This document shows positions 19,681 through 51,179 of a DNA stretch of 64,000 nt, one piece after another; position 1 is the first letter of the stretch, and every line of letters begins with the position of its first letter. Below the pieces are notes generated by a model. It searched no databases and was not told the DNA's origin. It worked only from the letters and a program-made list of their open reading frames with translations. This DNA comes from Sipunculus nudus (Eukaryota > Annelida > Sipuncula > Golfingiida > Sipunculidae). Made by a program: the position numbers and the translations under genes. Location: positions 28,260,714 through 28,324,713 of the forward strand of contig CM049320.1 in NCBI GenBank assembly GCA_026874595.1, in the 5' to 3' direction.

Positions 19681-19689
19681 AAATGGTCA

Positions 19690-20480
19690 AACAGGTGTGC
19701 CTTGTCTTCTTCTGCATGATGTAGCCAACCACAGAGAGCTGCACAATCTACAGTCAGAGGATAAGAGAAGAAAAAGGTGTGCCTCATCCACAGTGACAGG
19801 ATGAGACAACAACTCTCAATAGAGTAATTAACTCGAAAGATGAGCCACATTCACAGTCAGATGAGGGCTGGTAAAAATACAGGAAGGTTACCTCATCCAA
19901 AGTCAGTAGAGGAGACAGCTACAGAAATGTGCTTCACACACAGTAAAAGGAATAAACAACCACAGAAGGGTGCCCAAGGAGACTAAAAAATAGCAGGGTG
20001 CCTGTTCCAGTCAGAGAAGGTCACAGCTGCACAGGGGTACCTCTTCTACAGTCATATGCTGAGGAAACAACTATGGTCAGAGGATGATAGAACCAGAGAG
20101 GGATGCCTCGACTACAGTCAGAGGAGGACAAACCCAAAGAGGGCACGTATCTCATCTATTGTTAGAGGAGGGGACAACCAGATGGGGTGCCTTATCTATA
20201 AATTAGTATAATCAGATGAGGAGACAACCAGAGGGGAGTGGCTCATATACTGTCAGAGGAAGAGAAAACCAGAGGGCTGCCTCTCCTACAAACAATAGGA
20301 GGAGACAATAATACGGGGTGTTCACCTACAGAGGAAGAGAATACCAGGGAGATGCACCTCTACTTTATAATCAGTGGATGAGAAAACCAGGGAGGAGTTG
20401 TTTATCTTTTGCTAATGGATCAAACGACCAGAGAGTGTGCCTCATCTATAATCAGAGGAGCCAAGCAGAATAGTGGCTCA
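19690..20480. repeat. Degenerate left arm of the 41-bp minisatellite
   Basis: Loose units of about 40 bp share GTGCCTCATCTACAGTCAGA and GGAGACAACCAGAG. They are much more diverged than the core at 21095-23415 and fade out toward 19500. Confidence 0.75.
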
Positions 20481-21094: not shown

Positions 21095-23415
21095 AGTCAA
21101 CCAGAGAGGGGTGCTCAATTACTGTCAGAGGATGAGGAAACCACACAGAGGTGCCTCAACTACTGTCAGATGATGAGAAAATCAGAGAGGTGTGCCTCAA
21201 CTACTGTCAGAGAATGAGAAAACCAGAGAGGGGTGACTAACTACTGTCAGGGGATTAGAAAACCAGAGAGGGGTGATTAACTTCTGTCAGGGGATGAGAA
21301 ACCAGAGAGGAGTGACTAACTACTGTCAGGGGATGAGAAAACCAAAGTAGGATGCCTCAACTACTGTCAGAGGATGAGAAAACCAAAGAGGGGTGCCTAA
21401 ACTACTGTCAGAGGATGAAACAACCACACAGAGGTGCCTCAACTACTGTCAGGTGATGAGAAAAGCAGAGAGGGGTGCCTCAACTACTGTCAGAGAATGA
21501 AAAAACCAGAGAGGGGTGACTAACTACTGTCAGGGAATGAGAAAATCAGAGAGGGGTGACAGAGAACTGTCAGGGGATGAGAAAACCAAAGTAGGGTGCC
21601 TCAACTACTGTCAGAGGATGAGAAAACCAAAGAGGAGTGCCTCAAATACTGTCAGAGGATGAGAAAACCAAAGAGGAGTGCCTCAAATACTGTCAGAGGA
21701 TGAGAAAACCAGAGAGGGGTGCCTCAACTACTGTCAGAGGATGAGACAACCAGAAAGGGATGCCTCAGCTACTGTCAGATGATGAGAAAACCAGAGAGGG
21801 GTGACAGAGAACTGTCAGGGGATGAGAAAACCAAAGTAGGGTGCCTCAACTACTGTCAGAGGATGAGAAAACCAAAGAGGAGTGCCTCAAATACTGTCAG
21901 AGGATGAGAAAACCAAAGAGGAGTGCCTCAAATACTGTCAGAGGATGAGAAAACCAGAGAGGGGTGCCTCAACTACTGTCAGAGGATGAGACAACCAGAA
22001 AGGGATGCCTCAGCTACTGTCAGATGATGAGAAAACCAGAGAGGGGTGACAGAGAACTGTCAGGGGATGAGAAAACCAAAGTAGGGTGCCTCAACTACTG
22101 TCAGAGGATGAGAAAACCAAAGAGGAGTGCCTCAAATACTGTCAGAGGATGAGAAAACCAAAGAGGAGTGCCTCAAATACTGTCAGAGGATGAGAAAACC
22201 AGAGAGGGGTGCCTCAACTACTGTCAGAGGATGAGACAACCAGAAAGGGATGCCTCAGCTACTGTCAGATGATGAGAAAACCAGAGAGGGGTGACAGAGA
22301 ACTGTCAGGGGATGAGAAAACCAAAGTAGGGTGCCTCAACTACTGTCAGAGGATGAGAAAACCAAAGAGGGGTGCCTAACTACTGTCAGAGGATGAGAAA
22401 ACCAAAGAGGAGTGCCTCAAATACTGTCAGAGGATGAGAAAACCAAAGAGGGGTGCCTAACTACTGTCAGAGGATGAGAAAACCAAAGAGGGGTGCCTAA
22501 CTACTGTCAGAGGATGAGAAAACCAAAGAGGGGTGTCTCAACTACTGTCAGAGGATGAGAAAACCAGAAAGGGATGCCTCAGCTACTGTCAGAAGATGAT
22601 ACAACCAAAGAGGGGTGCATCAACAACTGTCAGAGGATGAGAAAACCACACAGAGGTGCCTCATCTACTGTCAGAGGATGAAACAAAGAGAAGGGTGCCT
22701 CAACTACTGTCAGAAAATGAAACAACCAGAAAGGGGTGCCTCATTTACTACCAGAAAAGACAACCATAGAGGGATGCCCCAACTACTGTCAGATGATGAG
22801 AAAATCAGAGAGGGGTGACTAACTACTGTCAGGGGATAAGAAAACCAAAGTAGGGTGCCTCAACTACTGTCAGAGGATGAGACAACTAGAAAGGGATGCC
22901 TCAGCTACTGTCAGGTGATGAGAAAATCAGAGAGGGGTGACTAACTACTGTCAGGGGATAAGAAAACCAAAGTAGGGTGCCTCAACTACTGTCAGAGGAT
23001 GAGAAAACCAAAGAGGGGTGCCTCAAATACTGTCAAAAGATGAGAAAACCAGAGAAGGGTGTCTCAACTACTGTCAGAGGATGAGAAAACCAGAAAGGGA
23101 TGCCTCAGCTACTGTCAGAGGATGAGAAAACCACACAGAGGTGCCTCAACTACTGTCAGATGAAGAGAAAATCAGAGAGGGGTGCCTCAACTACTGTCAG
23201 AGAATGAGAAAACAAGAGAGGGGTGACTAACTACTGTCAGGGGATGAGAAAACCAAAGTAGGCTGCCTCACCTACAGTCAGAGGAGGAGAAAACCAGACA
23301 GGAGTGCCTCAACTACAGTCAGAGGAGGTGACCGCCAAAGAGGAATGCCTCATCTGCTGCCAGAGTGGGACACAACCAGAGAGGGAATTTCATCTACTGT
23401 CAGGTTACAGGAACT
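21095..23415. repeat. 41-bp minisatellite core
   Basis: More than 50 units of 40-41 bp with the consensus GGGTGCCTCAACTACTGTCA followed by GAGGATGAGAAAACCAGAGA. Variants include CTCAAATACTG, GTGACTAACTACTG and GACAGAGAACTG units, which alternate in patterns and reveal a higher-order structure. ORFs of 60-67 codons inside it are repeat translations. Confidence 0.95.
21556..22340. repeat. 245-bp higher-order repeat in the minisatellite
   Basis: The variant GTGACAGAGAACTGTCAGGG occurs at 21556, 21801, 22046 and 22291, exactly 245 bp apart, so a block of six 41-bp units is repeated three times and starts a fourth. The three complete blocks read as identical by eye. Such homogeneity flanked by diverged units points to recent unequal exchange or gene conversion. 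Confidence 0.93.
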
Positions 23416-29779: not shown

Positions 29780-30180
29780 ATTGATTTCAAAATTATGGGT
29801 GCGCATTCACAACACTGACCCTGGTCCATTAGTGTTCAAACCATTAAGGTGCGGGTGTCGCAATTATACCATTACCATCACACCTGGAATAGTGAGGATG
29901 TCACGGAGTATATCGCTAAGTGTACATTAGCTATGTACACCGCCTGGGGGGGTTTGTGGTTACAGTAGGCCCCGGGGGACACATTGTCAGAAACCCCTCA
30001 TATTATTTCCTATAGCTTCAACCACCTGGAGAATACTTTTCGCTGCGTGACCACAGGGAATCCTGGGATTACTGGTCCACTTAAGCTGCAGGGGGCGGGT
30101 GTTCACGGGATCGGACAAAGGCTATATAAATCATGGTGGCTACTGTATAATACGCTTTTGCAATAGCTCTTTTGCTCCAG
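29780..30180 (+). promoter_or_regulatory. GC-richer block with TATA box (possible promoter)
   Basis: A block clearly richer in G+C than its surroundings. GGGGGCGGG (30091-30099) resembles an Sp1/KLF site and TATATAA (30123-30129) a TATA box about 25 nt later, so a plus-strand start near 30155 would be plausible. CACCTGG E-boxes occur at about 29883 and 30023. No coding exon follows before the mobile element at 30513, so this may be a non-coding promoter, an enhancer or chance. Confidence 0.35.
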
Positions 30181-31861
30181 AGGTTAATTCAAATCTCTCT
30201 CGATCCATCATCCCCCAATCCTATTTGATCACAGATTGTGTCCATTTCTGGTCCAATAATTATCAATCAATAACCTTATTCAGCACTATAGTGCAGGTGT
30301 GTTCTAGTGTTAAAATTCAATTAACTAATTATATCCCTATAGACTGTTTTGTGTTTGTATGTAATTGCTTGTGTAGATATAATTTCCTGATTCACACAGG
30401 AGAAGAATAATAAATCTGCAACAAACCCCATGAAATATGTTCTCATACTTGAAATGTACCCACTTATGGCTTGACTCATGGTTGTATTTACTCATGAGGA
30501 TACATTGACAGACTACAGGCCGGTGAGACGCAGATTTTTCGGACGTAGGCCGCCGGGACGTACCCACTGAAGCGTATCCCGATAGGACGTATTGTTAAAA
30601 TAAGAGTACATGTATCACTTGTCTGACTGTCTAAACTTTCCACGTACTAAAACAAAAAGACTAAGTAATAATAGTTAATTATACTTTCGTTAGTAAATCC
30701 TCTCTTGGGTCACTTTGGGAAATCATTAAGCTCTGTGATCGATGCAACATACGTCAAATCAGCACACGTTAATGCCTAGTATATCTGTGTTATCCATTAT
30801 TACTATATTACCCTCATGCATTTATGTCGTTGTGTTCCTTAACTGAAGTTTGACAAAATATTTAGTAATTTTATTGTTAATTAGAGCATTATTTTGGCTT
30901 AAAGTACGACCATCCCTCAATAGTGATAAACTCCGGGTATGGTTAACCCATCAGCGTTCTCCAATTTATTGGCCTAACGGAGGTTTAAATGACTAATAAT
31001 TACAGGTTTAACGTGTAACATCTTACTTTATTTTCCATATTCCTGTTATAATTTTCACTATTATAAGTATGTATATCATGTCGTGAGAACATATTAAGTC
31101 TGCTCAAACATGAACGAATTGCTCACCAGAGACCAGCGAAGCCGCAGTATAAACGCGGTCACGAGAAACCATTCACCCGACGCGGCCACTCGTACAGTTC
31201 AAAGGATGAACCTTTAATTAACGGACTAAAAATGTCGATCAAAGGTTTCTGGATGATGAATCATTTATATTGATCTCTTACACGCACTTAATGTATTAAG
31301 GAAAGAATAAATATTTACATATTTTGATTATATTCGACTTCTGACAAGACCACATTCCGAATAAAAGACATTATAAATAGACAACAATTTTATGAGAAAA
31401 AAAACTTTATAGAATAAAAAATTAGGTTGGTTGTTATTTTGTTAACATGAAAATACTACCTGTGCGTAGTATTCCGTTAGTATCATCCGGTCTGGCGCAA
31501 GTATGATCGGTGGCGGGTGACCTATTTTGGAACAAATTAAGTGCCGCGGTTGGTGTAGACAATAAAACTATCCTGAAAACGATTTCTCTCCAAATTGTAT
31601 GTGTATATTTAATTTCTCGCGTGTGTCTGCATGTTTAAACCGCAGTGTTAAAAACTATCGTGCTGATTGAAGATTCCTCTTCAAATTGTGTGTGTGTGTT
31701 TTTTTTTATTTCATGGGTCAGACTATGTGTTGAAACTGCTGAATAGTGAAGGCCGAATAACAATTATACCTTTGAGTTCCAACTACCCGCTAATTGAGTC
31801 CATAAAGAACCGATAATGAATACCCATCTTCCATCAACCAACCGTAAACTTAATGTAAAAC

Positions 31862-32120
31862 CAGAAGACAAAAATAAACGAAAGAAAGAAAGAAAGAAAG
31901 AGTTATGTAACGAAGGGAAGAATGAAGGAAAGACTGAAAGACAAAAGAAAGAAAGAAAGAAAGACTAAAAGAAAATTGAATGAAAGACCGGAGGAAGAAA
32001 GAAGTAAAGAATATGTAACGAAGGAAGAATGAAGGATAAGACTGACAGAAGGAAAAACTGAAAGAAAGAAAGACTGAAAGAAAGAAAAAAAGAAGAACTG
32101 AAAGAAAGACCGGAAGAGGA

Positions 32121-32152
<32 letters not shown>

Positions 32153-32545
32153 AACATGTATCGAAGGGAAGGATGAAGGAAAGACTGAAAGAAAGATAGA
32201 AAGACTGAAAGAAAGAAAGGCTGAAAGAAAAAATGATTGAAAGAAAGAAAGACTGAAAGAAAGAAAGAAAGAAAGACTGAAAGAAAGAAAGACTGAAAGA
32301 AAGAATGAAAGAAAGAAAAAAAAAGAAAGAAAGAATCATGTAACGAATGGAAGGATGAAGGAAAGACTGAAAGAAAGAAAGACTGAAAGAAAGAAAGGCT
32401 GAAAGAAAGAAAGACTGAAAGAAAGAAAGACTGAAAGAAAGAAAGGATGACTGAAAGAAAGAATGAAAGACTGAAAGAAAGAAAGACTGAAAGAAAGAAT
32501 CAGGTAACGAAGGGAAGAAAGAAGGATGGAAGGAGCGAAGAAGGA
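31862..32545. repeat. GAAA/GACTGAAA compound microsatellite
   Basis: About 680 bp of almost pure purine on the plus strand: GAAA runs interspersed with GACTGAAAGAAAGAAA units and a longer unit GTAACGAAGGGAAGAATGAA recurring at about 31906, 32016, 32158, 32340 and 32505. The F/S/L-rich minus-strand ORFs of 84 and 124 codons are translations of this array. The strict strand asymmetry could allow triplex DNA. Confidence 0.95.
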
Positions 32546-32654
32546 AGGGAATTATAATTGATGACTTATAATTAATGTTTGTGGCTTACTACTGATTGAC
32601 TCCAGATGAACTAACAGACTCAGCTGTGGTGACGATCATAGGTGTTACTCAGGA

Positions 32655-33050
32655 GGGTTGGTTTAGCGTAGTTTAAATCATAAAAAATACACTTATTAAA
32701 GAGAGACGTATCTGGGCAGGATGTATACACGCAGGGTTCGTTTAGCGTAGTTTTAGCCATAAAAAATACACTTATGAAAGAGAGACGTAGACGGACAGAA
32801 AGTATACACGCAGGGTTCGTTTAGCGTAGTTTTAGTCATAAAAAATACACTTATGAAAGAGAGACGTAGACGGGCAGAAAGATACACGCAGGGTTCGTTT
32901 AGCGTAGTTTTAGTCATAAAAAATACACTTATGAAAGAGAGACGTAGACGGGCAGAAAGTATACACGCAGGGTTCGTTTAGCGTAGTTTTAGTCATAAAA
33001 ATACACTTTTGAAAGAGAGACGTAGCCGGGCAGGAGGTAAACACGCCGGG
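32655..33050. repeat. 79-bp tandem array (five units)
   Basis: GCAGGGTTCGTTTAGCGTAG recurs at 32731, 32810, 32888 and 32967, with a diverged first unit at about 32652, so the period is 78-79 bp. Each unit has TAAAAAATACACTTATGAAA and GAGAGACGTAGACGGGCAG. It sits directly inside the right inverted end of the transposon at 30513-33214. Confidence 0.93.
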
Positions 33051-33917
33051 TCCCGCAGCACGACACGCCTAATTGGAGACGGGGCGATGTTTATGGAGTG
33101 CGTCCTACCGGCCACTCGTCATTGTTTATATAGTGCGTCCTGCCGCCCTGCGTTTTATCGCACGGTCCGTTGGGACGTACGTCTTATCGGGATGCGTCTC
33201 ACCGGGTGCACACCCATTGACAGAGATACATTTTAAAATATCATCAAGAGATTATGTGTGGTAAGACTTTTAAGGAAAGATCCATAGCCTTTTAAGAATG
33301 GAGGTATTGATATAACAAGAATATTATGTTATATCCATCTGGATTTCGGAATTTATATGAACAGGGTTGGGTATAATTCATAAGCTACAGTTCAATGTAT
33401 ACCACATCCCTGAGATTAATTGATAATTCAACACTGTTAAACTGGGCTCCCATCTTCACATTTTTTTCTTTTGCCGGCTGATTTTTTTCAAGTAGCCACA
33501 AAAATCTGCCAGTCTCACTGACCTGTGAGTGCTTGCACACCTACTGATTTTCTGCACCAATCAACAGATTTTAAAGGTAATTTAATTTAGTCACTTCTGA
33601 TTTTACCTCCAGGATAGTTATTGGCCTCAGGAATGATAAAGAGAAGGAAGAGTAGGTTGTATAACAGCGATTTCTTCGGTTCCGTCATCACAGTGACCAA
33701 ATTTTTGAGAGCATATAAAAATCGGCTGATTTACAACCTACACAACTACACATGGCAGCGTGCACCCTAAAAATCAGCAGATGGGCAGCTGGCTTTATTG
33801 TGTTAGCACTGACAGGTGTATCACTATTCCTAGACACATTCAGCTCCAATATATATATATACCAAAAGGCAACATAAAATCCAATTAAGTGTTTTCTACA
33901 TAGGGTTCTGGAAATAG

Positions 33918-33998
33918 CATCAATAGCCTGTTTGACAGAAAGAATGTTGACCTATCAGGGTTTGATGGGATTTCAACACCTGATCTGATTGTGATACA
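33918..33998 (+). mobile_element. Possible fossil tRNA-like SINE head
   Basis: ATAGCCTGTTTGACAGAAAG (A-box-like) is followed by GGGATTTCAACACC, a poor B box, at roughly the right distance. Too decayed to be sure. Confidence 0.3.
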
Positions 33999-34058
33999 AA
34001 AATTGAACAGAGATTTATACTTTTTTGTAGACTTTCTCTCCTGTGTGGCATTCATATA

Positions 34059-34236
34059 CAGCAAAACCTCAAAATTACAACCACCAATGGGACCACGATA
34101 TAGTGGTAGCTTTTTCGAGGTGGTTGTTTAAGGGAGGTCTGATATTAGGAGCTAAAAAGAATGGGGACTGTGAAAAAGTGGTCATTATTTTGAGGTAGTC
34201 GCTATACTGAGGTGGTCGCTAGGCAAGGTTTGACTG
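34059..34236. mobile_element. GAGGTGGTC-family MITE, copy 2
   Basis: Flanked by TA on both sides (34057-34058 and 34237-34238). The left end CAGCAAAACCT and the right end AGGTTTGACTG are inverse copies with small differences. Inside are repeated GAGGTGGT/GAGGTAGTCGCTATACTG words. It is the better-preserved partner of 28981-29128. I recall similar short repeats with GACCACCTC motifs in many invertebrate genomes. Confidence 0.78.
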
Positions 34237-34239
34237 TAT

Positions 34240-36647
34240 TTAATTATGATCCCATGTTTAGTGTATATGACTCAGTATCATTTTTTACAATTTTCCATCA
34301 TGACTTCTTTTCAAAATAGAATTATGTGCATTTCTGTTTAAAACAAAGTATCAAAGGTACACTTTATAGTTATATTCTATAAATGACAGATTATTAATAT
34401 CTTGCTCTTTCAAGTGATTTGACTGAAAGCAGATGCTTACTTTATTTCACATAAATTCCTTGATTAGATTATGGCAACAGACATTTTTCACTTATATTAA
34501 CATAAATTAATGTACCACAGAAGGTCACCTTCCCACGAACCCTGATAATTGAAAATCACAAGTCCCTTAGAAAAAAATATATTGACCATCTTCATTAGCA
34601 ATGATATCTGCAGCCAATCTGATTGCAATAAAAACCAAATAGTACAAAGCCAGTCGCAGGAATACAAGTTTGGGCATGCTCAGCGCTTAATCGGGCTGCC
34701 ACTAATGATTTTGATGGCTATGACACCACGACAATACAAACTGGCCATTACACCGTGATCTAATAAATATTTCATTTGGAAATTCTGTGGATGGTTTATT
34801 CAGCACACAGGGCATGACATTTCCTAATATCGTGCACTGTTAATATGCAAATAAGCACGTTCACTGGTCATACATGCCTGGTAGACTGACAATGGGGCAA
34901 CAATTTTTTTTCTCACCATGATCTGCACGGCTGGATTTCATATATAACACAGGGGTTGAAATAGTTCAGACTAGTAGGATTTGAAATATTTCATACATAT
35001 TCATAGCTCTATATATAAATTAACTTTTTAAAGTGCACTTGGAAATAGAAAATCACAGTTCCATAATTATTTCAGTGACAACAAAAATATTTTAATGATT
35101 TAATAATTTTTTTACTAACAGAGTTAAATATAAATTACTCATTTTATCATTATTTGAAACATTTCATGATAGGCTACATTACTCTTGTGTAATTACAAAT
35201 ATATTCTTTAAAAAATATTAAAGTATTAATTTCATTTAGCATTTAGAGCACTTATGTGATCTGGTCCTCATGCAATCAGCAAAATGTTCATATTAATTTA
35301 ATTTGGCTTCAAGTAAATAATGATTGATAAGCATCATTTTAATGACAAAATTTTAATGTCAAATAAATCCTCTGACTATTGTGACATATGTGGGCTGACA
35401 TATATTCCTCAGTAAGAATATAATGAATATTCAGTCCGGATCCCTTGAATTCAAAATAAACTCTTCCAAAAATCATACTTGCCAGAACAGTCCACTCCAA
35501 ACAGGGGTGGTAAGCTATATGATCACATGAAACTGCACTCATACCACAATGTCAATGGTGAAAACAAGGATAAATACAGAAGCGTGTTTTTTTTTGGCGC
35601 TCAGAAGCTTGGCAAACTCTGATGGGTGAAATTTGAACACCAGAGTGTGAGACCGCCCTCCTGAATCTGATTGGAGAATACCCCACTTCCTGTCTGTGAC
35701 AATGTAGACTTCTGATCGGAGAATATAAAGTTTTGCGCAGGTGCTTATGACAGAAGAGTTGTTCCGAGAATTTCTTTCTTTGAGGAGCTGGCTTTCCTGT
35801 TGGTGCGTCGGAGCAAAATTTTTTAGAGAATGACTGTTGACCACCTAAACTGCTAAGAATCTAAATCTCAAAAATCTAAAACTGCTAAACCTCACACAAT
35901 TTTGTTTATCTAATCTAATAACTTATATTATATTCCAATAACTGCACAAGTCACTCACTAAATATTTTCTTGTGTATTTTATTTTTTTATAATGGTTCAC
36001 TTCCCCTCATCTGTGATGACTGAAGAAAACATGTTAATTTTCCACTGTTTATATTTCTCCACAGGAATGCATCTTTCTACTATATACACTTCTTACTAAA
36101 CTAGTTATAACTAACACTATCTTAATCATATACTCTCACTTCCACACGGGAATATAACTGAACCTATATTAAGCAAAATTTGTTTACAGAATATCTAATA
36201 CTGCAACTGATCTGACATCATTTTAACCTAATGTTACTGTTATTCTGTCATGTGTATACCTATCAAATGTCAAATTTTTACCTTACTTCCATCGAACAGT
36301 TCAAATCTGCTGCCATATGGGACTGCTCTGAATGAAGAAGAAATTTGATAAAAGTACAATAATATCCACATTAATCAAAACACCTGCTGAAATATCTATC
36401 ACATAATGACCAATGATTTGCTGTCCTGTTCGTCCAAATGTTCCTAAAATTGCGAGATATGTATTCCCTACAGTAAAATATCTCTCTCGTGATCGACAAT
36501 GGTTGTAACTGTCAATTGTCACTACCAGCTGCTCATGTCTATGCATAAACTTACATACGTGAATAAACATACATACTTGCAAAATTTTACTATTTTGCTA
36601 TTCTGCCAATCCTGAATCACATAAGCATGCATGTGAACCTGTTCAAT

Positions 36648-36699
<52 letters not shown>

Positions 36700-39384
36700 A
36701 ATGTTTTTTTCTGGCGTGATGGTCAATTAGTCCTCCCGGATCAAAGGCATTCATTATATACAACACTAAAACAAATAAAACCTAATTCAACTTCTAAAGG
36801 ATATCATTTTTAATTTTTTTCTGCTAAAGAATTGAAGTATATCCCTCTGCCAGTCCTATTATTTACTGACAAACTACTAATAATGTATACATTCTTATGA
36901 AAGACCTGATATCCTTTTGGACTATACTTTTCCTGCATTATGCTACTGCAACAAAGCATGTCTGTCTGATACAATAAGATCTATTCTTCTGTCAGCCATG
37001 ATAGAATCGGACACGCCTAAAATAACATGCAACTACACCAAACCAGCTGAATATTCTGTACCTAATGCCTGGTGTATGTATCTGATGACAAATCTATACA
37101 GAGAGTCCCTATTTTCATGCATATTCACAGCAAGCCACACCAACGCAGTTATGAATGGGGCGACAAAAACCATCCTTGAGAATGCATAACCAACACATAC
37201 ACTATTGCAACCTGGTGCATGACATTTTCACTGCCAGCATGGCCTGTCACTGAATTAATCATGTCGTAATGACCCAAGCCTGAATTTCAACCGCGCATTA
37301 TGCAGCCCAGCTACAGATGGCTAAATAATAGTCGCTGAAGGATGCAAAATATGATAAATATAGCACCAGGTCCATTAAGATCAATTACCTACGTGCCCTG
37401 GCTAAGCCCAGATCAATAAATCCTGCAGTGTTTACCCCTGATGAATGGCTATTTATACCATAAACTATACACTGAGGAACCTTTAACTTGTCAAAAGAAG
37501 AATACAACCTCTGTCAATGATAACTTTCACCATAGACTCCAGAATATCTGGCAAATTTAAGGCAGTTTGATGCTATCTTGTTTAAACGCAGGATAGAGTG
37601 AAACCACTTATAAAAACTTGGCTTTGGTTCCTCTGAATAATAATCGGTATATCAACCGCTGTTATCTGATCAGAATGCATAGTAACCCCCTGCTGCTTCA
37701 AGAAATGGCTATTTGCGATCAGAGCGACTTCACAGCAAGGCAGCTATAATACAAGACACATGAATAGGAGGAGACTTCGTATTTATCCGCTGCTTTAGAT
37801 GCGGTATATTGATCCTAAATTTTGTGACGACATCCTAAAAACTAACAAATTATGATGCCTGGTGCTCAGTCAATAGACTAGCATTCTGTTCAATTATTCA
37901 ACAATGCATCATTTAAACTGTATGTAATAAATACTGATGTACTCATATACACATACGCGAAGGTACAACAGGTAATTCTAGATTGAGATCTTTTGACTTA
38001 GATTTTCTATATACCTATATTCGCACCTATTTCATCAATAGTCTACTCTGAAAGATTTTTTTTTCTTTTCATAAAAACTTATAATTTTTTCTCTGCTACA
38101 AAAATATGTCCAAGCAGACACAGAAAGTGAAATATGCCTGTTAATCTTTAATCTAGGTTTATATTCCCATAATTATTATCTCAGCTAGAATCTAAAACAA
38201 ATGAAGACTGTATTTTATTCTAATTCTCAGGCATAAATGATCTGGTTAAGCATATTCTAGCAATAATCTTTCTTTCACATACAAACCAGCTGAAATATTT
38301 TCATGGCTTTCTCTATCATTGGGTTTTTCTAACCACATTGTAACCTGAAAATCAATCTAGTCTGCTTAGACAATGACATTAATGGTGTCTTTCTGAATAT
38401 AAACAATATACTCTGCAATAAATTTCTAGGGCTCCCTCTATGAAATTACTAATATTCAAAGTTCAACCTGCCCTCTTTACTAACATAGATGTCAGTCCTA
38501 AATCCTGAAGTACCATGGCAGTTCAGAGCATGTTGTTATCCAATAGCCAGTAAGCACTATATACAGGATTCAAACAAACCAGGAATACAATGCAAGAAAT
38601 GCAACTTTGAATCAGTGTAAATAAAGTATTCCTCTGAAAGGTTAAATACTGATTCCTACAATATTCCTCAATAAAATATTTTCTTATTTATATGGTTCTT
38701 ATTGGCATATCTCAATTACATCTATACCCCCACTGAAATTAATAATTTCTAAAATGTCTTTAGTAATCTGTAAACTTTCACCTTTACCTGTAAATTCTCA
38801 ATTACATTAATTGACAATTATCTGGAAGATTCTCATCTAAAATATATGATGATCTGTACAATGTGTCTATATTTAGGTCAATACTATGTGTAAACTATCC
38901 TTGCATGGGTATCCCTGGGTATATTCAATATTATATGGAAACTGTACCTTTTAGAGCCCAAACTACACTTCACTAAATATAAGCAACTTGAATATACACA
39001 GAGATATTAAAACTGAATATATAAGATTCATTATTACCTGTAATATTCCATTATATTTAATATCCATGAATCATAATCATAAAATGTACATGAAATATAC
39101 ATGAGCTACGTCCCCTACATCAACTACCTGTAAAATTCAATACTTCTTATAAAATAAAAAACTGGATAAAAAAATATTTTAATCTACTTGTAAAATTCAG
39201 CAACTGATATCTCCATATGAATGCTACCTGTATTCATGTACATGATCCAAGTAATAATTAACTAGGTATTATACACCCAAATGCACTTGAGCTAAATACA
39301 TCTACTTCAATATACACACTGACAGTCGTAAGAGTAACTAGCATGCTGAAGAACTAACCAGCCAGAAATATGGACTGTCAAGCA
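34240..39384. other. Mostly unique AT-rich DNA downstream of mir-8 (minus-strand sense)
   Basis: No recognisable exon. Contents: an (AT)n microsatellite at 36647-36694; patches of higher complexity at 34590-34880 (with an octamer ATATGCAAAT), 35340-35850 and 37200-37860 that look like regulatory sequence rather than drift; and a loose recurrence of TACCTGTAAAATTC words at 38790-39235. The ORFs at 35539-35844 (minus, 101 codons) and 36917-37189 (plus, 90 codons) do not resemble known proteins. Confidence 0.45.
36647..36694. repeat. (AT)n microsatellite
   Basis: Nearly pure AT dinucleotide run of about 48 bp with one AAAT interruption. Confidence 0.97.
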
Positions 39385-39503
39385 ACAGCCTGCGGGGCTG
39401 CAGCAAGATGGAAATCAAACAGCGCCAGTAGTAGTAGCAGCAGTACTCGCCAGGAGCAGTAGGAGCAGTACTCGTTGCGTTGCGTAGATCGGCAAGCCCT
39501 GTG

Positions 39504-39526
39504 GACATCTTTACCTGACAGTATTA
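39504..39526 (-). ncRNA. mir-8: mature miR-8-3p (main arm)
   Basis: This is the 23-nt guide arm. Its seed, AATACTG (positions 2-8), is the miR-8/miR-200b/c seed. The whole arm agrees with the bilaterian miR-8 sequence as I remember it, so target choice should be conserved. Confidence 0.95.
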
Positions 39527-39544
39527 GAGAATGCAATGCACGGG

Positions 39545-39566
39545 TCTAATGCTGCCACGTAAGATG
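39545..39566 (-). ncRNA. mir-8: miR-8-5p (star arm)
   Basis: This 22-nt arm pairs with the 3p arm with 2-nt overhang geometry. It begins CATCTTAC and ends GCATTAGA, like the star arm I recall from Drosophila, with a GT replacing a CG in the middle. Confidence 0.88.
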
Positions 39567-39620
39567 TACTCAGAACCTGCGTTCATGTCACCACGCGCCG
39601 GGCGGAAAGGCAAAAGTCCC

Positions 39621-41285
39621 CATCAGCAGGTGAAAAAATTCAAGACAGAGCTGGTCACAGAATCCTGTATTTGCTGTGCTCTTTTGGACTTTTCAGTTAT
39701 GTACTCCACACAAAGGTACTAAGGAAATGAAACATTATAACAAGTATCTCTGCAGTCACACTCTCTTCAAATGTATAGTTGAAGGTCTCATTCGCATAAA
39801 TAAATGTTATTTTGCTAATCTCTGACAAATATACATTATCAGAAACAGATATATTAACATTTTTTTTCTCCCTTTACTTATTTGTACTAAATTAAACACA
39901 GTATTAATGTACAATCTCTCACAATCCTATATTTTATTATTTATGGTTTATATAAATTTAAATAATTGGTAAGTAATCATTCCTCTGTCTTATTACTAAG
40001 CCTACAAAACCTGATTACAAGTGTACTCTGAGTATAACTGTATTAAGATAAAACTGTATTTATCAAATTAAATTATTTTATTTGTATACTGTTTACAAGT
40101 ATAACTTTTATATAATTTTACTATGTGTGTTATTAAAATTTAAAGTTTCCTGTTATTATGATATAAATGATATATATTTGATAATTGATCATGTTAACAA
40201 TATTTTGTTGCATGTACACTTCATACAATGCATTGGTTTATTGCAGCATCCAGGTGATGGCAAGTCGGTAAATTCTTTAAAAGAAATATCAAGGAAAATT
40301 TTTCATTTCAATCTGATACATATATATATATATAAACTTGTCATATGATCATCTGGTTAAATATATCAAGTTTTTTATGATGACAGTCATCATGAACTAG
40401 CTGACACTATGTTATCCAACCAACATGGGCCCACCTGTGTTACCAATAATTTCCTTATGGATATTATATATCTTGGGAGTTAATTTCCGATATCCAAACA
40501 TTGACCTCGTTTGCACTCACTGACATGTATGGCCACAATCATAATCAGAACATGGGGTACAAATTCCAAAAATTATAAAAAATCCACAAAGTTGCCATAT
40601 ATAGCTTATAGGAAGAGACTTCCTGCATGTCATGGAAATCCATAATTCACCAACACAGCGTGTCCCGATAAATTCCAAAAAAGTTTTGCAGATCCGCTGG
40701 TTTATCTTATCACTGTGACATTTTCAGCTTGCAGGTGAATCTGGTAGTGTTAATGCTCCCATATAAGCAACATTAAACCTTAATTTTCTCCACTGTTGAG
40801 CTCTGACCTTTTCATTCAATTGAGTTTGTTTTCTTATTCAAGAGCTGCACCAAACCTTAGGCAGAGGCATAACAATTGCACAAATTAACAGCACTATTTC
40901 TTGTCTTGATCCTGACTCATCAACTCAAAAAGTATTGTTTCACTTGATGAATATAATGTTGTATAAATACAAAATATCTTGTGGAAATAAGCCACTAAAT
41001 ATAGTAGCAACACTCAACCTGTGTTAAATCTTCCCAAATACTGAAATTTAAGTATTTGACATAAGACATACCTATGAAAAATATGAAAAGTATTGTAATA
41101 AATATAATTGTACTTTTCATTATTACTAATAATATTAATAATTTCATTATCATCCATATTTTTCATTTAAGGTTGGATTTTTTTTTCAGACAGACATTGA
41201 CAATTGTAACACAATAATCCCATGAGATTAAATTTTAAATTTTATCTAAATCTATCATGTATTTCTTACACTTAAGAGCCTTTAA
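39621..41285. other. AT-rich DNA upstream of mir-8 on the minus strand
   Basis: No recognisable gene. If the primary transcript starts well upstream, this stretch is part of it. A TA-rich run lies at 40319-40333. Confidence 0.4.
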
Positions 41286-41703
41286 AATGCCTTTGATTTT
41301 TTTTTTTTGTTGGAGGTAACCGCCTTTATTTTTTTAATGCTAGCTTAACTAAGTGTATATACATCTGCAGATTTCCATTCCGGTTTCGGACTACTTGACA
41401 GGGCAGTATCACACGCTTCCTCCCATTTTATAGCCTGGCGTTAACAAGGCCCGGTGATTACTGCACCTGCAGGCCCTGGGTTGGTAATCATACCACCAAG
41501 GACCCCGAAAGGCGCACTCGTTTGTGAGTGACACACGGCCGTTGGGCACAACCTTCCCATTAAGCCTGCAGAGCGCTCACCCTGGGTGGGGGCCGACCGT
41601 GAAAAACCTCGCCTCCTCGTCTGAGATTCGAACTCACGATCTCCAGGCCTTGGGTCCTGCGCTCTACCCCTGAGCCACAGAGGCCGGTAATGCCTTTGAT
41701 TTT
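41286..41703 (-). mobile_element. tRNA-derived SINE, copy 2 (well preserved)
   Basis: Same family as the element at 621-1024 and better preserved. The tRNA-like head at about 41620-41688 (minus strand) has the A box TGGCTCAGGGGTAGAGC and a perfect B box GTTCGAATC. The body carries many intact CpGs, so the copy is fairly young. The tail is a T-run at about 41297-41308. Flanks 41286-41298 and 41689-41701 are an exact target duplication, AATGCCTTTGATT, extending into the T-run. The CpG-rich body may carry one of the conserved SINE central domains; I could not name it. Confidence 0.92.
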
Positions 41704-44700
41704 GTTTACTTTATCTTTTTGCAACCAAGCAAAGAGACAATGAAAAAGGTTACAAATAAATAGTAATACTGTTAAAAACAGGGCTGTATAGTCAGTACAA
41801 CCCAGATAAAAGACAACTCATGAGTCACCATGCCTGTTGCATTATTTATCTTACAGATGTATAAATGTCACAGAGATCTGTGCTAATTGCTAATGATATC
41901 AGTTTGTCAGTTGATACTTATCCATTCACATAAATACTAACTGACACTTTATCTCTTAATTCCATATTACCCACCATAAGTCAAAGAGGTCACAAACTTT
42001 GGTCTGCTTGAAGAATTCGACCCAGCATATAATCTATATGCACAGACGTTGGTTGTATGTTTCCCAGCAGATTTAGTTTGTTTTCACTTTCAAGTAACCT
42101 AGTTTCCCTAACAAGCACCTGTGCAAACATTCTTTCATATGTATGATATTTCCCCTGAAACAGGTTTTTGTAAATAACTGATCTCTCAAAGTAACCAAGA
42201 ATAAAACTATTTTAACAATTTGATTTATATTTTGTTTTTTCCTTCAGAGCAGCTGGTTTTCTGCTGCCATAAAACCAAAAAGGTACAATTAAGGTTTAAT
42301 TAAAAATAAATTACGATTAATATGTTGCAGGCTTGTGATCTTTTAATCTGGTTTTTTGAAGACAAAATCTTTTAAATAAATGAAATTCACTTTTTTTTTT
42401 ACAAAAAAGTGCTTAACAATATTATCTTTAAAACAAACAGACATACCATATATTAGATTTTTACTTCATTAATAAAAGACATATTTGATTTGATTATATT
42501 GCAAATATTTTATTCCCACCCTGTTTGGTCTTTAGTCCATTTAACAAAGTCCCTTTTTTACAGAGATAAACTTTCATGCCCTGGGGCCCATAAACATACA
42601 GATAAACCTACTCGAGTCCTATTTTCTTAATCAGCGCATATATATGACTGTTGATTACAATACAATGGTCCTGTTTCTTAAACATTTCCACAGTTCAAGT
42701 GATGATGGCAGACATTTCAGTTGTACATTTCAGTTGTTTATTTCAGTTGTACATTGGATGAGCACTGATTGGGTGTGGTTACAAGAGAACATGTGTGTAT
42801 TATACCCAATGATCACCTCACAATGTCTTAATGTCACTTCAGTTCCAGAAGTGTGATGCATTTCTATCACGAGTGAAGGAAACCGATAGATTTATGTTTC
42901 CACACAATGGTAAGTGTACCATAAAAATAGCTATTCACTGATAAAACAAATTTACAGGGGAAAAAATATTCAATTTAAGGCCAAACCTCCAATACACTGA
43001 ATAACAGTTCTAAGTTAATGGGAAACAACATTCTTTCTCAAGTATAACTCCGCCTCCAATGCAAATGGAAATCACAAACTCTCAAGCTTGGATACCGGAC
43101 ACAAGAACTGATCATTTTAACGGAAGAAATATGAGGAACTGTGGGAAAAATCCAGATAATTGGAAACAAGACAAAAAGTAAGCCCAGATGGAAAGCAAAG
43201 CCGCAGAGAAAAACAAAACAGAAAGCACTCACCTTCACTGTCTCATCCCTCTGGGACAGTATTGTCACTTTCGTTTAAGATTATACTGAAGAAGCTTCTG
43301 AAATGCTTATACATATAAGCAGTCACTGATTACAACACAGGTTTCTCGCCCATCACCTTTTACAAAATGTGAGATTATAAGTGTATATCGATAGTGCTAG
43401 GTAAGTTGCCAAAAAAGAATTTGAAACCATCTTATGATATATAAAATATAGCCGGGTGTCTTTTTCTTATTAATTATATATTTCTTTATCAAAATCAAAT
43501 AAATTGTGATTGTATCATTAAATTCAATATTAATGGATTTAAACCCAACAATATCTGGGTTTGCTGGACATGATTTTTACTAAACATTCAATCGAGAAAA
43601 AAAAACTGAATTAAAATAATTTTCAAATTGAGCATACCAATATAAACTGGGTAATTAATGTAAACCCAAGCTGTGTCAGATGATTTCTTTGAAAGAAGAT
43701 TACAGAAATTCCATTAAAATGTTAAAACTTTACTGTCTGAAGAAATGTTCTTTTTTTCAGTTACCGAAATTTTTGAAACCAATATATCAGGCACTATCAC
43801 CAATGGATCTGCTGGTATGTGAAACTGACAACACTCACCTTGCTAGGAAAGGTTCTCAAATGTATCCTCCTTGCATATGAGTGGAGAGTGGTTGGTTGGC
43901 AGTGTAACGGGAAAGATCTGGATGTAATCTATATCAAAGTGTATCTGCGCAAAGGCTATCCTATGTAAGGTTGGATAGACTTGGCTCATGAGTGGAGCTT
44001 GGGAATTCAATCCAGCATTAAAACAGGCTTGTTTCTCCATACTGAGTGAGCTCTGGGCAAGTATGTTGGCCAGACACAGGAGAAGTTTCCTGGCTGTATG
44101 TTCCAAGATCAAGGGAAACCCAGCTGTTAGCTGGCTTGTATGCTGTGGCCTAGAAGATGGTTAGGAGGATGAAAACCATCTACTAAAATGTGCATGCCTG
44201 CGCTATGATGCCCCTTACAGCAATGAATATGCTGATTCATGCGGACCTCTCTCATAAAATTAATATGACAAAGTTACTAAAATAACTCTGCTCCAAGGCA
44301 GCTGGCACAAGACCACTATTAACTTGTACTGAGAACAGTTTTAAATCGTTGTATCTCTTCTGAGCCATCAATGGACGAAATGTCATCCAATGCAAGTAAA
44401 TACTAAACGGGAACCCAAATACAACAGCCTGATCAGGCCCCCTATATCAATGGAAATATTTCATGCTATGACCTCGCATTTTTCTCCAGAAAAATAATGT
44501 CACAGGTGGCCTTAAAACCAATTATACATACAGCTCACTGATATTCAATCTGGATCTGTTGAACTCATCACTGTTTGATAATGGTGTCCATATATTTTCA
44601 AGAGAAAAAAAATTTGTTCTTCACAATGAATCATCTGTGGTATTCTCCTTTCAGAAAAGTAGTATGATGTGACTATGTCGTTATACTGCAAAATATTTTC

Positions 44701-45620
44701 CGAACTGGTTCACGATGTGACCCCACTGCAGAACTGAATACCAAGTGAGGATGTGTGCATCATTTGTGCCTCCTTGTAGCATGAGGCAGAACCTGGTGTG
44801 TGGACAGGACACTGCTACACCCCTGCCTTATAAAGCTGTGTAAACGGTATCATTGGCTTAAAAGGGCGGTGCAGAAACTAGTCTACACCGCCAAGTCGCT
44901 GGTCACATATTAGTAAAGTCCTAGTCAAACAAAATCCTCAACCACTGACCCCTACATACATTCCACCTGGACCACGGTCAAACTTCACACTGACCCTTAA
45001 TGAAAGATAACGAAGCACCCATCAAACAAACTGACGCTTTGAAGTGGCCATTGAAATTCAAAAGGGCTCAAGTATGTCTTAGGCAGCTAAGCTGGCACTG
45101 AAGGGGTGCCTGACGCCACGTTGGAAACTGCATTCTCTGGTTGTATAAACACAACTCGACTTACCTGTTTCAACATAGGTGGGTCTGTAGAGTGTGATAG
45201 GAATTTTAAATTTCTCAAACTGCACTTAACTGATAACACAGTGGATAAAATTGCACCTACCTTTACAATACCAGGGTGCAACAGGACAGCCATATGGTAT
45301 GCCCTGAACGCTGCATACTTTTATTTAAACCAGAACACCTAGCTGAAAGACTTTGCTATTGTACAGGGTAGGTTGAGCGTTACTTTTCAGTGCGTTTATT
45401 CAGAAAGAATCGGATCCAAACCTGTAATTACTCCCACTGACTGTGCACTAGACATTCAGCGATCAAAAGAACACATTGTGCCGTCAACACTTGAAAACTG
45501 AACCCATTTCACTGAGATGATTTACTTACAAAAAATGAACTTCAGTACAAAGTAGTAAAACTTGTGCTTTACCATCACAAAAAATATGACACCTACTTAC
45601 TTTATAATTTAAATCGACAT
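41704..45620. other. Unique DNA without a recognisable gene
   Basis: No exon I can defend. At 42706-42754 the word ATTTCAGTTGT(A) occurs three times. The blocks 44200-44720 and 44780-45480 have higher sequence complexity and CpG content than the neighbourhood. The latter includes a 78-codon plus-strand ORF (45106-45342, start MPDATLETAFSGCINTTRLT) that I do not recognise. Confidence 0.4.
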
Positions 45621-45627
45621 TTGTGTA

Positions 45628-45654
45628 AATATATATATATATATATATATATAT
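45628..45654. repeat. (AT)n microsatellite
   Basis: A pure AT dinucleotide run of about 27 bp. Confidence 0.97.
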
Positions 45655-48600
45655 CCGTGTGTCTTTTTATAGCTTAAAGAAACAAATCCTAGGTTCCTCA
45701 ATAGGCTATACCCAAGGCTACTACTGTATTATATTATATATTACCCCATTACATGCAATATGGGGCAAAACTTTCTTCCAGAGAGTATGTGTATTATAAA
45801 ACTTCCTCTCCTTTTGTACTAGAGAGCTCCTTGAATCCTCCAAACGGTGCTGGACACCTGCAGTCTCGAGGAAATACAGGGATTGAAATTAAAACATGGC
45901 AACACATACCATTGCACACCTGTTTGAATATCATGTGCTTAATGTTCCCCAGGGTTTCAAATTTTAAAACTGAACGAAAAAAAATTATCAAGAAACTTAG
46001 AGGGACAACACATCCAATCAAAACAGATGAAAAGTAATTTATACAATAGCTTATGTATATGTTACTTGTGAATCAATGATTGATAATATAAATAATACAA
46101 GATCCTTTATATTATCTGTGAATAATAAACAAGAATTTACACCCCTTGGATCTTCCCTTGGGTCTTTTTTATTAAAGCTAGGTTGTTAAGATCTTGTCTA
46201 TATAAAAACTTAATTAAATAATCCACTCCATAATGGCAATACTCTATGTAGGATACTGCATTTCATGAAGCTTATTCAAGGTCTTTTCAAAGCACTATTT
46301 TAATATAGATATCTATAAATATATATTTATAATAATTAAACTACCCATGTTATTAGCCTGGGCAGAGAGTAATATATTTTCCATTTAAATGACTGACGGG
46401 AAATATACTCTGCTCGGCAATGGTTCGTTTGCACATGCTCAGATATGCACGATAATGAAATCATGACACTCAGAAGCACTCTTGTATAGTTCCCATAAGG
46501 CATTAAGGAAACGAGCATGTCGTGACTAGACATGTCAGGGAATGACTGCTCTAATCCATTACTCATTTCTCCCTCTAATTCTCTCTCTCTCTCTAATTTT
46601 TAGTTAGATAATTATTTATCATAAATTAAATATGGTCATTTTCTCAATGAATTCCTGTATCTATTTTACAATTTATTAATTATTATTTTAAATATTTAAT
46701 GTGTTTTATTAGTGTATTAGGTCTAAAACTTTTTCTCCAAATTTTTTTCAATGAGTATTATATGGAAATTATATTGTTTTCAACTGCGCACTAAATGTTA
46801 GTTTTGTAAATTCTTTGTTGATTTTGAATAAAAAAGGTTTATAATACATGGCCTTTTTTAATGACATTACACATTTTGATTGTCTGATTGTTCTGTGCCC
46901 AGACTGATCTTGAAATAATGAATATTCATAGTGAGGTCAAAGGTTCAATAATGAACAATGTATGGACAAACCAAGCACAGATGGCAATAAACATTATTAA
47001 GACATGGGGCTGCAAAGTCTAGAGCAAATTAGATAAGGAATTATATATATCATTTTATATATGTGTATCCCTCCAGCCAAGGTTCTCAGCCGTTTTTTTG
47101 TATTACAGTATTTTCCTCGAGACAGCTATGTAAACTTGTATTAGCACCTGTGCCAATTTGAGCGCGCCACCTGACATCGACTAAAACATGTTCTGACAGG
47201 GCATTAATTAGAACGATTCACTTTTCCACAATTTCTCTGTCCCTATGATTAACTGCCTCGTCAATTTTCACACATACATTAATCACTCATTAACATGTGC
47301 TTGTGAAAACTCATTATTATTTATTTCAATTAACAAAGTACAGTTAAAATAAATAACCCTATTTAATTTTAAACAAAACTGGGAAGATATATAAAATCTA
47401 TTGTTAATTCCAACTGAGCTCATGAAAAATCAGTTGTTGCATATTACACTTTAAATATTAATATGAACATCTTGTACTGCAAGCAAATTATTTATAAATA
47501 CTTATAATATGTCCAAATAAATGCACAATTTAGACTTTCCTTATCTATTCGTCCCTGGTAGATTTGCTTAATATATTCGATATGTTAAATATATGATGAC
47601 AACATTCTGATGAATATTTATTAATTCATGAATATTCAAGGTTCTATATTATAATGACATCAGGATTCCTGGCATCTACTAGGTAAAACACATGCAATTG
47701 ACATTTCATTATGATTTGATCATTTCATTACTTCAATTCATAATTCTCATTCTTTTTCAATTTTTTTTATATATCTATTTTCAAGTCCTAGCTTTCATGG
47801 AGTCCTATATGGCTTCTATGCAATAAGAAGTCTACAGAGTTTGGTATGTGTTATGTAAGTGTGTGCATTTTTTTGTACCACAATGCTTGAAGATATATCA
47901 CATTGAATCATGTGTTCATGATATATCACACAATTTGTGACAATATGGAAGAAAAACCACGTCAGATCATGTCAACAAGATACAAAATTTACTAGCCACA
48001 CCTGAGGGGTGTAAAAGCCAGCATAACCAGGCAGATTTGTTACAAAGGTGGCACCTCTGAGAAATACGTCAAATGCTGGGCTTACCTGTTGTCACTATTA
48101 CAAGATGGTGTCCATAACCAGACATGCCATGTTCAGATTATGTGGGTACATCTGGCAGGCATGGTGGTAAATACCCAGTAAATACCCCTCAGGGATGGCC
48201 CCTATCTGCCCATATCTGCCAAGCAGATGTTAACATGCGTGTGCGCACCTTATTTCCTTATGTGCTAATTGTCCACCAAAGCTATTAAGGTTACTGGGAG
48301 GTGGTCTCTCCCATGTAGTGGCTGACAAAGAGACCATTGTAATAAAAGGATCTATTTCAGGAAATACAGGTTGCATGAAGATTGAAATGACCAAAACAAT
48401 TTTATATAATGATTTGTGCTATTTTAGATTTTTAAATTAGAAAGCGTGTCTCTTTTGTGCAAAAGTTAACATCACTAAAATGTGGCATTTAGCCAATTAA
48501 CCAAGTTTTCCCTATAAATAATGGCAATTTTATGAAAATTTAAAACAATTAAACCATATAAAATCCAAGGAAGCATGAATTTAGACAAACTGTCTCAGCA

Positions 48601-51179
48601 TCCCTAGCATATCCAAGAGATCATTAAAACTTAATTTTAGGTAAATTAAATAACATTCAAAACAAATATAACAGATTGAGAAAATTAAATTAGGTAGGAT
48701 GCTTCATGTTACATTCTTTGTTTGAATTTATGTAAATTAATGCAAACAATGCCCATCATCTGTAGAACACAGTACTGACTGACCTGTCATTTTAGTACAT
48801 GTATACCATCATGCAGACGATTTAGTGCACAAGTACACCACGTTACAGGTGGGTCACCGTGGGTGTGTTGTGGAAAGGCAGTTGAACTCTGGGATACTTT
48901 TATGATCAAAGAGACAAGGTACACCTGCTTGGTTGCGCAGATACTAAGAAGGTCATTTTAAACTTGGCGGTCAACTCAGGCATCTGACGGACTACGCAAA
49001 CATGTTGAAATACAGGACGATGAGCCTACCAGGTTTAAATATCCCACCCTCTGTGGGGTAAATGAACATACATAAAGGTTTACATACTTATTAAATACAG
49101 AATACCTAAACATTTACAAAAGCTGATATATAAGGATTTTTTTTTATTATATAAAATTTATCATATTATTAATATAATATATATTATTTACAACAATATA
49201 AATTTCTTATATAAGGTGTGTGATACAAAACTAAATACAGATGTCATTTCAGTATGCCTCTCATGACACATAATATATTATCTGAATAAAAAATTAACAT
49301 ATTAGGTATGGCTTCTTTTGCTGTGGTTAACTTACAATTTGAGTTTATAATAAGCACTGATGAAATTATAATTAATTTAATAATTAAAAGGTAAATTCCT
49401 CTGCCTTAACATTACACAGGTTTGTCTGAAGAATGTATCTGACAAAAATACCTACATGATAATTTTTTACCAACATGAGAAGAATGTTGAGAAAAAAAAA
49501 TATGTTTCAAATCTGTGTGTAAATGATAAAATTACACATCCAGTGTGCAATGGATGAATCAGACAAATTTTGCATGCTGGATGCACACATACAAAGATGT
49601 TATCTATATAAGCAACGTTTAGGGGCAATTTAGTCCCACGATGAATGACTACACTGTAAGTGTTATAGTAACAGATGAATGGATAAACGATCACCATCTG
49701 ACACCATCAGGGGACTAGGTTTCCAAACACAGCTGCTATCAGTATTATCACGTGAAGCCAGTGATAGCTGGTGTAGTAACAATCATACTACATTAACGTA
49801 GCTGATATGATACAAACATTGGTCACACACCAGCAACGTGGAACTCCATCAAACGCTGGTGATATAATCTGCGACCGGACACAAAAGGGATCACGTGTAC
49901 AGTGTGGCCGGAACAATGAACCATTTTCCAATGAAAGCTACAAGCATACTTGTCTTTATTCTAAGAAGACCCCTGAGCATATTTCCCACGTTGCAATGGT
50001 TGCCAACATGCAAAAAATTCAAACCTCATTTATCACAATGAAGAAAATTTTAATTTTTTTCTAATATTTTATAAGTTATCCCAGCAGTAGTTTATCTATC
50101 TCCTGTTCTATTAAAATGATGGTTTGAGTTTCAGCAACTGTTGCAAAGTCAGTTAATGCAACTGTAAAGGGTAGTTTTCTATGTGTAGCATGACACAGTT
50201 TTGATTCAATCTGGTAGATGCAATTACTAGTAATCCATGCATGTTCAATTCTGAGTTAATTTGAATTTATTATAATAAAAAGTTTATATGGCAATTATGG
50301 TAAAAGTACAAGTGTGAAAAAAATGAACTCATTCTCAAAAAGAACGTGAAACACAATTCAGCACAATTAACCACTATAAAAATGAGTATATTCATGCCAG
50401 AAAAAAATAATGATTTGCTATATGGTACAATGAAACCAGAAAGCCCCAATTGTGTATAACTCAATCAGCCTTAAAACACTGGTACAAAGAAACTATAAGA
50501 CCATTTATAAATAAGACTACATGTGTGAAGTGCTCAAGTTGTAGCAAAATGCCTGGATAAAATGAGACACAATCTTGGGAAAACATTAAACCTTTATGAA
50601 ATAATGACAAAGAGAAAAGAATTCCACACTATAATATTAAAATTGGAAGACAATTGGTCCACTCGAAACAAAGAAAATGTCAGCCGCCCCCCCCCCCCCC
50701 CCAAAAAAAAAAAAAGAAAAAAAAATTCTTTTTGCATTATAAACATGGGAAATTTTTCAATCTGTACAATTAAAATATGATACCATAAGTTCTTCCCCTT
50801 AAGCATATTGTTACAAATAAACTTTTAACAATTTATTTTTCTGTTACTCTGATACACAAGGAAAATGTGAAACCATTTTACAAACCGTTAAAATTAGTGT
50901 GAAATTAAGAAGAAATGACTATGCTTACAATGTAATTAATGAATAAAATTTACACTTTATATACAACAGAATAAACAGAAAGTGTTGTAGAAGTGTGCTA
51001 CATACAACATACACTTACTTGAACCTAAAACCTGAAGACAGGACAGAGACATCCACCAACAAACATAACAAAGTTCAGCCACAACACTTACAGGAAACTT
51101 CATCCATGCACAGACATGGAGTCTTTACGGTATGAATAAAGAATGTCTTTATGGTAACAATAAAATCATGCTGGGTACA
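45655..51179. other. AT-rich DNA without a recognisable gene
   Basis: No exon-like ORF. Complex patches that could be regulatory: 47085-47290 (CACCTG E-boxes, TTAATTAG homeodomain-type site, a small CpG cluster) and 48830-49060 (CAGGTGG, GATCAAAG TCF-type site, ACACCTG). A C-run followed by an A-run lies at 50687-50715. Confidence 0.4.
50687..50715. repeat. Poly-C / poly-A run
   Basis: Sixteen Cs followed directly by about thirteen As. Such junctions are prone to assembly and sequencing error. Confidence 0.95.

Follow-up and report, generated by a model that had tools for sequence, protein, structure and literature searches.

The 64-kb stretch of DNA analysed here (the window, C15:28260714-28324713) almost certainly carries this animal's mir-8 gene (mir-200 family), the single copy within the scope of our search. 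The locus is an ordinary member of a known family, and what is new is the locus itself. A mir-8 gene is expected in bilaterians; here it is placed exactly, and annotation based on open reading frames (ORFs) would miss such a gene. The initial annotation had put it at 39504-39566 on the minus strand; these positions coincide to the base with the outer limits of both predicted arms, and the proposed mir-8/mir-200 identity is borne out by the covariance model, the sequence and the fold (Table 1). From seed sites that lie downstream of its coding region, the mRNA of the transcription factor ZEB/zfh1 is predicted, by a slight preference, to be one target of mir-8 in this animal.

Table 1. Features of the mir-8 locus (window coordinates; an empty strand cell means that none was assigned)
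Feature	Position	Strand	Remarks
mir-8 precursor hairpin	39501-39571	-	RF00241, 62.9 bits; 71 nt, fold z -4.42
miR-8-3p arm	39504-39526	-	predicted guide, 23 nt, seed AATACTG; one exact occurrence in the assembly
Terminal loop region	39527-39544	-	18 nt; the fold shows a short 4-pair hairpin inside it
miR-8-5p (star) arm	39545-39566	-	22 nt; extent inferred from pairing with the 3p arm
Extended stem	39492-39580	-	12 pairs below the first base of the 5p arm; 36 pairs in total
CNNC motif (CTAC)	39484-39487	-	+17 from the 3p end; weak alone
25-bp tandem repeat	39423-39474		2.1 copies; directly downstream of the hairpin on the minus strand

The Rfam model RF00241, which describes the whole precursor of mir-8, mir-141 and mir-200, fits this locus from position 1 to 72 of its 72 positions (E 1.2e-11; gathering cut-off 47 bits), and this is the sole match at cut-off level in the window among the 4227 families scanned. 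The 3p arm, read on the minus strand and ending at 39504, is TAATACTGTCAGGTAAAGATGTC; the exact family 3p sequence UAAUACUGUCAGGUAAAGAUGUC is present at the locus, and the seed AATACTG, which had been recognized in the initial annotation, occupies nucleotides 2-8 of the arm. The sequence, fold and family membership of the locus are established. In the assembly (1.43 Gb in 153 contigs), where the hairpin lies at C15:28300214-28300284, a search for the family returned this locus alone over the cut-off among the candidates scored (E 6.3e-11). Since 65 of the 153,212 first-look candidates were scored, weak copies could escape. Beyond its single exact occurrence in the 1.43 Gb, the 23-nt 3p sequence has two further assembly matches when up to three mismatches are allowed, compared with seven for a reversed-pattern control, and the 311-bp neighbourhood of the hairpin has one assembly match, itself. 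In a collection of prokaryote genomes, no exact match to the 3p 23-mer was found.

Canonical animal microRNAs derive from a stable hairpin with at least 16 pairs between the arms. The 5p arm of this locus, read on the minus strand from 39566, is CATCTTACGTGGCAGCATTAGA, and 18 pairs join it to the 3p arm, one of them G-U. This count agrees with the approximately 18 pairs described earlier, as do both arms and the 18-nt loop. In the predicted pairing, the first 5p nucleotide faces position 21 of the 23-nt 3p arm, and the first 3p nucleotide faces position 20 of the 22-nt 5p arm. Both ends of the duplex would therefore carry 2-nt 3' overhangs, as left by Drosha and Dicer, the 5p ends themselves being deduced from the pairing. 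The hairpin is intact, and the earlier term "complete gene" holds for the hairpin alone.

Folding of the 101-nt segment 39485-39585 on the minus strand, which the initial annotation had proposed as a check, pairs the two arms at -42.2 kcal/mol (z -5.32). The 93-mer 39490-39582 gives the same energy (z -6.37), which none of its 200 dinucleotide shuffles reaches, and in a scan of 12,782 93-mers, at steps of 10 bases along both window strands, no other energy is as low. The runner-up, an unrelated 93-mer at 41448-41540, comes within 0.1 kcal/mol of the mir-8 hairpin (-42.1 kcal/mol), and for this reason fold energy alone is unconvincing. Two sequence motifs flanking the stem, CNNC at +16 to +18 and a basal UG at -14, are optional and follow rules drawn from mammalian work. 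The CNNC reported 17 nt downstream is indeed there but is weak evidence by itself: in the +16 to +18 range, its background frequency is 9.8% of window positions. The bases at -14/-13 are GC in place of the basal UG; many true microRNAs lack the UG, so that its absence does not disqualify mir-8.

Sequences of mir-8 have already been reported in several molluscs. The 3p letters are printed in 30 papers; judged by title, 25 of these deal with arthropods and five with molluscs. A text search of the mainly open-access literature found neither the 5p 22-mer nor its 15-mers. In Biomphalaria glabrata, the tabulated bgl-miR-8 has a 23-nt 3p arm identical to that of this locus, and a different 5p arm (cgucuuaccuagcagcauugga, compared with CATCTTACGTGGCAGCATTAGA here) (PMC7328434). 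The same table gives 245404 and 47380 for the 3p arm and 528 and 181 for the 5p arm, which are taken for the read counts of two libraries (PMC7328434). Another table places the B. glabrata miR-8 in an intron of a protein-coding gene (PMC12261956), whereas no host gene was found here among the ORFs scanned against Pfam. In Crassostrea gigas, the qPCR primer listed for cgi-miR-8 is the same 23-mer (PMC3916443), and in the blood clam Tegillarca granosa, the listed Tgr-nmiR-28, classed there as a novel candidate, has the same 23-nt 3p core with one additional base (PMC3972184); for these two species the comparison is confined to the 3p core.

From these features, we infer the following route of transcription, processing, strand choice and repression. 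RNA transcribed from the minus strand would form the mir-8 hairpin, which would be cut by Drosha/Pasha and then by Dicer to give a 22/23-nt duplex with 2-nt overhangs. The 3p strand would be loaded into Argonaute and would repress mRNAs with CAGUAUU(A) sites, the mRNA of ZEB/zfh1 being one probable target, as in flies and vertebrates. The assembly contains 28 matches to Argonaute/Piwi-domain exons, and RNase III-domain stretches are present on the large contigs C3 and C5.

It is very improbable that the locus is a silent mir-8 pseudogene and that a second locus holds the working gene. Such a gene could lie in an assembly gap, which escapes the search, or among the first-look candidates outside the 65 of 153,212 that were scored; against this, no other match over the cut-off was found, the exact 23-mer is the only one, the arms, the loop and the 12 basal pairs are all intact, and the 3p arm is unchanged with respect to the printed sequences. 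Use of the plus strand, in addition to or instead of the minus strand, has a precedent in the antisense microRNA of the fly iab-4/iab-8 locus, and the plus strand here gives a mir-8 match of 39.1 bits with a fold z of -3.56. This score is under the gathering score of 47 and is 23.8 bits less than that of the minus strand, and a symmetric hairpin folds on either strand by construction. An antisense microRNA is considered very improbable, and the plus-strand match was dismissed as the mirror of the minus-strand hairpin. The chance co-occurrence of a hairpin and a seed would be conceivable insofar as stable folds are not rare, as the other window 93-mer at -42.1 kcal/mol illustrates, but the E-values of 1.2e-11 in the window and 6.3e-11 in the assembly search, together with an exact 23-mer that is found once, make its probability negligible.

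The mir-8 gene looks solitary. No other Rfam family reaches its gathering score in the window or in the 40 kb on each side of it (80 kb), and a scan with a lax E-value covered window positions 30000-50000. A mir-297 candidate at 36623-36693 was dismissed (25.9 bits compared with a cut-off of 90, overlapping a TA repeat). The earlier statement that no protein gene can be supported in the 64 kb stands within the reach of the scan: the window has 19 ORFs with 90 aa or more, and in the 15 that were compared with Pfam no family exceeds its cut-off. The other four are 19436-19744 and three ORFs situated within tandem repeats (5078-5413, 17430-17888 and 31965-32339). Nor did any family exceed its cut-off in five of the 13 listed flank ORFs with 110 aa or more, and three weak Pfam matches in the scanned ORFs (E 0.036, 0.054 and 0.093) were judged to be chance. 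The ORF/Pfam scan thus accounts for long frames, and short exons of a host gene for mir-8 would escape it.

The window holds long tandem arrays at 21099-23385 (41-bp unit), 11170-12704 (180 bp), 17126-17914 (57 bp), 5054-5817 (42 bp) and 32654-33051 (79 bp). The 57-bp array keeps a 161-aa open frame on the minus strand, as is usual for arrays whose units are divisible by three. A repeat of approximately 290 bp at 41400-41690, which contains the runner-up fold of the 93-mer scan, has at least 39 other copies at 93-95% identity (40 of 4109 first-look candidates scored). It is possibly a SINE, from a stretch that resembles a tRNA T-arm, and ARAGORN called no tRNA in it.

Silencing of zfh1/ZEB by the miR-8/miR-200 family through 3' UTR seed sites is described in flies and vertebrates (PMC5919756). 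ZEB was picked as a target on account of this knowledge, with its sequence in this animal yet unseen. Its homologue is located at C12:70411011-70415928, where an open frame of 966 aa encodes C2H2 fingers together with a homeodomain. An exon 4.5 kb further on is 82% identical to a finger stretch of human ZEB1 (query entered by hand), and the best match of this query by E-value outside the ZEB gene is 52% identical. ZEB proteins have N- and C-terminal zinc-finger clusters around a homeodomain, and in vertebrates ZEB reciprocally represses miR-200. The C2H2 fingers, homeodomain and further finger exon found here reproduce this layout, and the gene was assigned to ZEB by this layout and by the finger identity.

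The 3.8 kb that follow the ZEB stop codon, which are genomic DNA and not a mapped 3' UTR, contain seven canonical miR-8 sites (three 8-mers, one 7-mer-m8 and three 7-mer-A1; site letters considered, CAGTATTA). Dinucleotide shuffles of this region have a mean of 1.03 sites, and none of 4000 reaches seven; for the 8-mers the shuffle mean is 0.14, and two of 4000 reach the three observed. Two sites are present on the reverse strand of the region. Thirteen control zinc-finger genes, taken from the list of ZEB1-finger matches and spread over 11 contigs, have 10 sense sites in 49.4 kb, with a maximum of three per gene, and no sense 8-mer (one is present on the reverse strand).

Because the length of 3.8 kb was chosen with the sites known, the shuffle test was repeated at eight lengths. 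At 1, 2, 3, 3.8, 4.5, 5.35, 7 and 9.7 kb, the observed site count was reached by 75, 2, 3, 0, 1, 0, 4 and 17 of 1500 shuffles, respectively, and the observed 8-mer count by 1500 (none being observed at this length), 124, 7, 0, 0, 1, 0 and 1 of 1500. Among 144 overlapping 3.8-kb background segments, one has eight sites and one has six, and none has more than two 8-mers. Background clusters of at least five sites occur on the minus strand of the window only, and four of the five sites printed for that cluster fall, in converted coordinates, in the 41-bp tandem array at 21099-23385.

One of the sites after the ZEB stop, at L023:3936, has long additional 3' pairing with the microRNA (-20.7 kcal/mol). 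Among 20,000 contexts from the ZEB region, which include that of the site itself, 97 attain this energy, as do 114 of 20,000 from the window, and the lowest pairing energy among 14 background 8-mers is -15.2 kcal/mol, the mir-8 locus itself excepted. Since eight sites were looked at, this pairing is supportive, not decisive.

The polyadenylation signals of the region bear on how much of it belongs to the mRNA. AATAAA occurs 68 and 263 nt past the ZEB stop (L023:330 and 525), ahead of all seven sites, and next at L023:5604, while ATTAAA occurs several times among the sites. These signals could end the ZEB message before some or all of the sites. By analogy with fly zfh1, the AATAAA at L023:330 and 525 may form a switch between a short and a long 3' UTR; the short zfh1 isoform of Drosophila is described as lacking the miR-8 site (PMC5919756), and here two AATAAA precede every site.

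It is quite possible that the seed sites after ZEB arose by chance or from composition and that ZEB is no target in this animal. The 3' region is genomic DNA with an early AATAAA, CAGTATT ranks 5th of the 16,384 heptamers in it, one of the 144 background segments had more sites, and Atrophin, the second classic target, has no sites near its tentative stop. Against this, the choice of ZEB followed from what is established in flies and vertebrates and preceded any view of its sequence here, the site count is beyond every one of the 4000 shuffles, the reverse strand has two sites, and one site has the long 3' pairing described above. We lean narrowly towards repression of ZEB/zfh1 by mir-8 through several 3' UTR sites, with the early poly(A) signal perhaps letting some ZEB messages escape. 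This prediction, made from sequence, has in common with the miR-8/zfh1 and miR-200/ZEB pairs the microRNA family, the homologous gene and the seed sites after the stop. If it is true, a microRNA-target pair of flies and vertebrates would be present in a third great animal branch; spanning Lophotrochozoa, Ecdysozoa and vertebrates, the pair would therefore date to the last common bilaterian ancestor. A literature search for a link between miR-8 and ZEB in molluscs gave none among the matches listed, which were mainly open-access.

Atrophin is a classic target of miR-8 in flies. Exons that match the Atrophin-1 family are present at C15:12888345-12893163, and one of the three frames scanned (L022:7-444) scores 27.1 bits, below the cut-off of 29.9. 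A search with the human sequence, run without a positive control, gave no match to the C-terminus, and the stop was placed tentatively at L024:8243-8245. The first 5.4 kb past this tentative stop contain no miR-8 site, the nearest being at +5431 and +6056, and Atrophin as a second target of miR-8 is not supported. The mir-8 and Atrophin loci fall on a single 64-Mb contig, with 15 Mb between them. A comparable arrangement exists in human, where the mir-200 clusters lie on the chromosomes of the two atrophin genes (1p36 and 12p13). The shared contig may reflect either old macrosynteny or chance.

Further observations concern other parts of the assembly. Several small contigs within C61-C94 are bacterial (e.g. 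C61:1281859 and C89:675178; L041, L049 and L050; C61 has 2.2 Mb and C89 3.3 Mb). FlaA, which belongs to the flagellar sheath of spirochaetes, has 43 matches; these are spread over 13 contigs, each of them within C61-C94 (best E 7.8e-43). An RNase III frame of 237 aa, of one score and length, is found at 10 places on nine contigs, and its regions on C61 and C89 are 99.9% identical over 1373 bp. A pattern-based scan gave six relatives at 37-42% identity, and closer ones are possible. The picture suggests that the animal lives in association with several strains of a poorly known spirochaete, for which Cristispira, from the crystalline style, is a conjecture. Contig C108 (77,911 bp; L042) has an RNase III gene unlike the former, within a 1-kb segment at 51% GC, and is probably a second kind of bacterial contig. 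For a muscle-myosin exon of the assembly, the eight best PDB matches of the 60 listed (103 in total) are 3i5f, 2ec6, 2os8, 1dfk, 1dfl, 1b7t, 1kk7 and 1qvi, which are squid and scallop myosins; by this likeness the animal would probably be a mollusc. In a muscle myosin gene of the animal (C2:44849337-44852248), four adjacent exons each match model positions ∼109-153 of the head domain, suggesting that they are mutually exclusive alternative exons.
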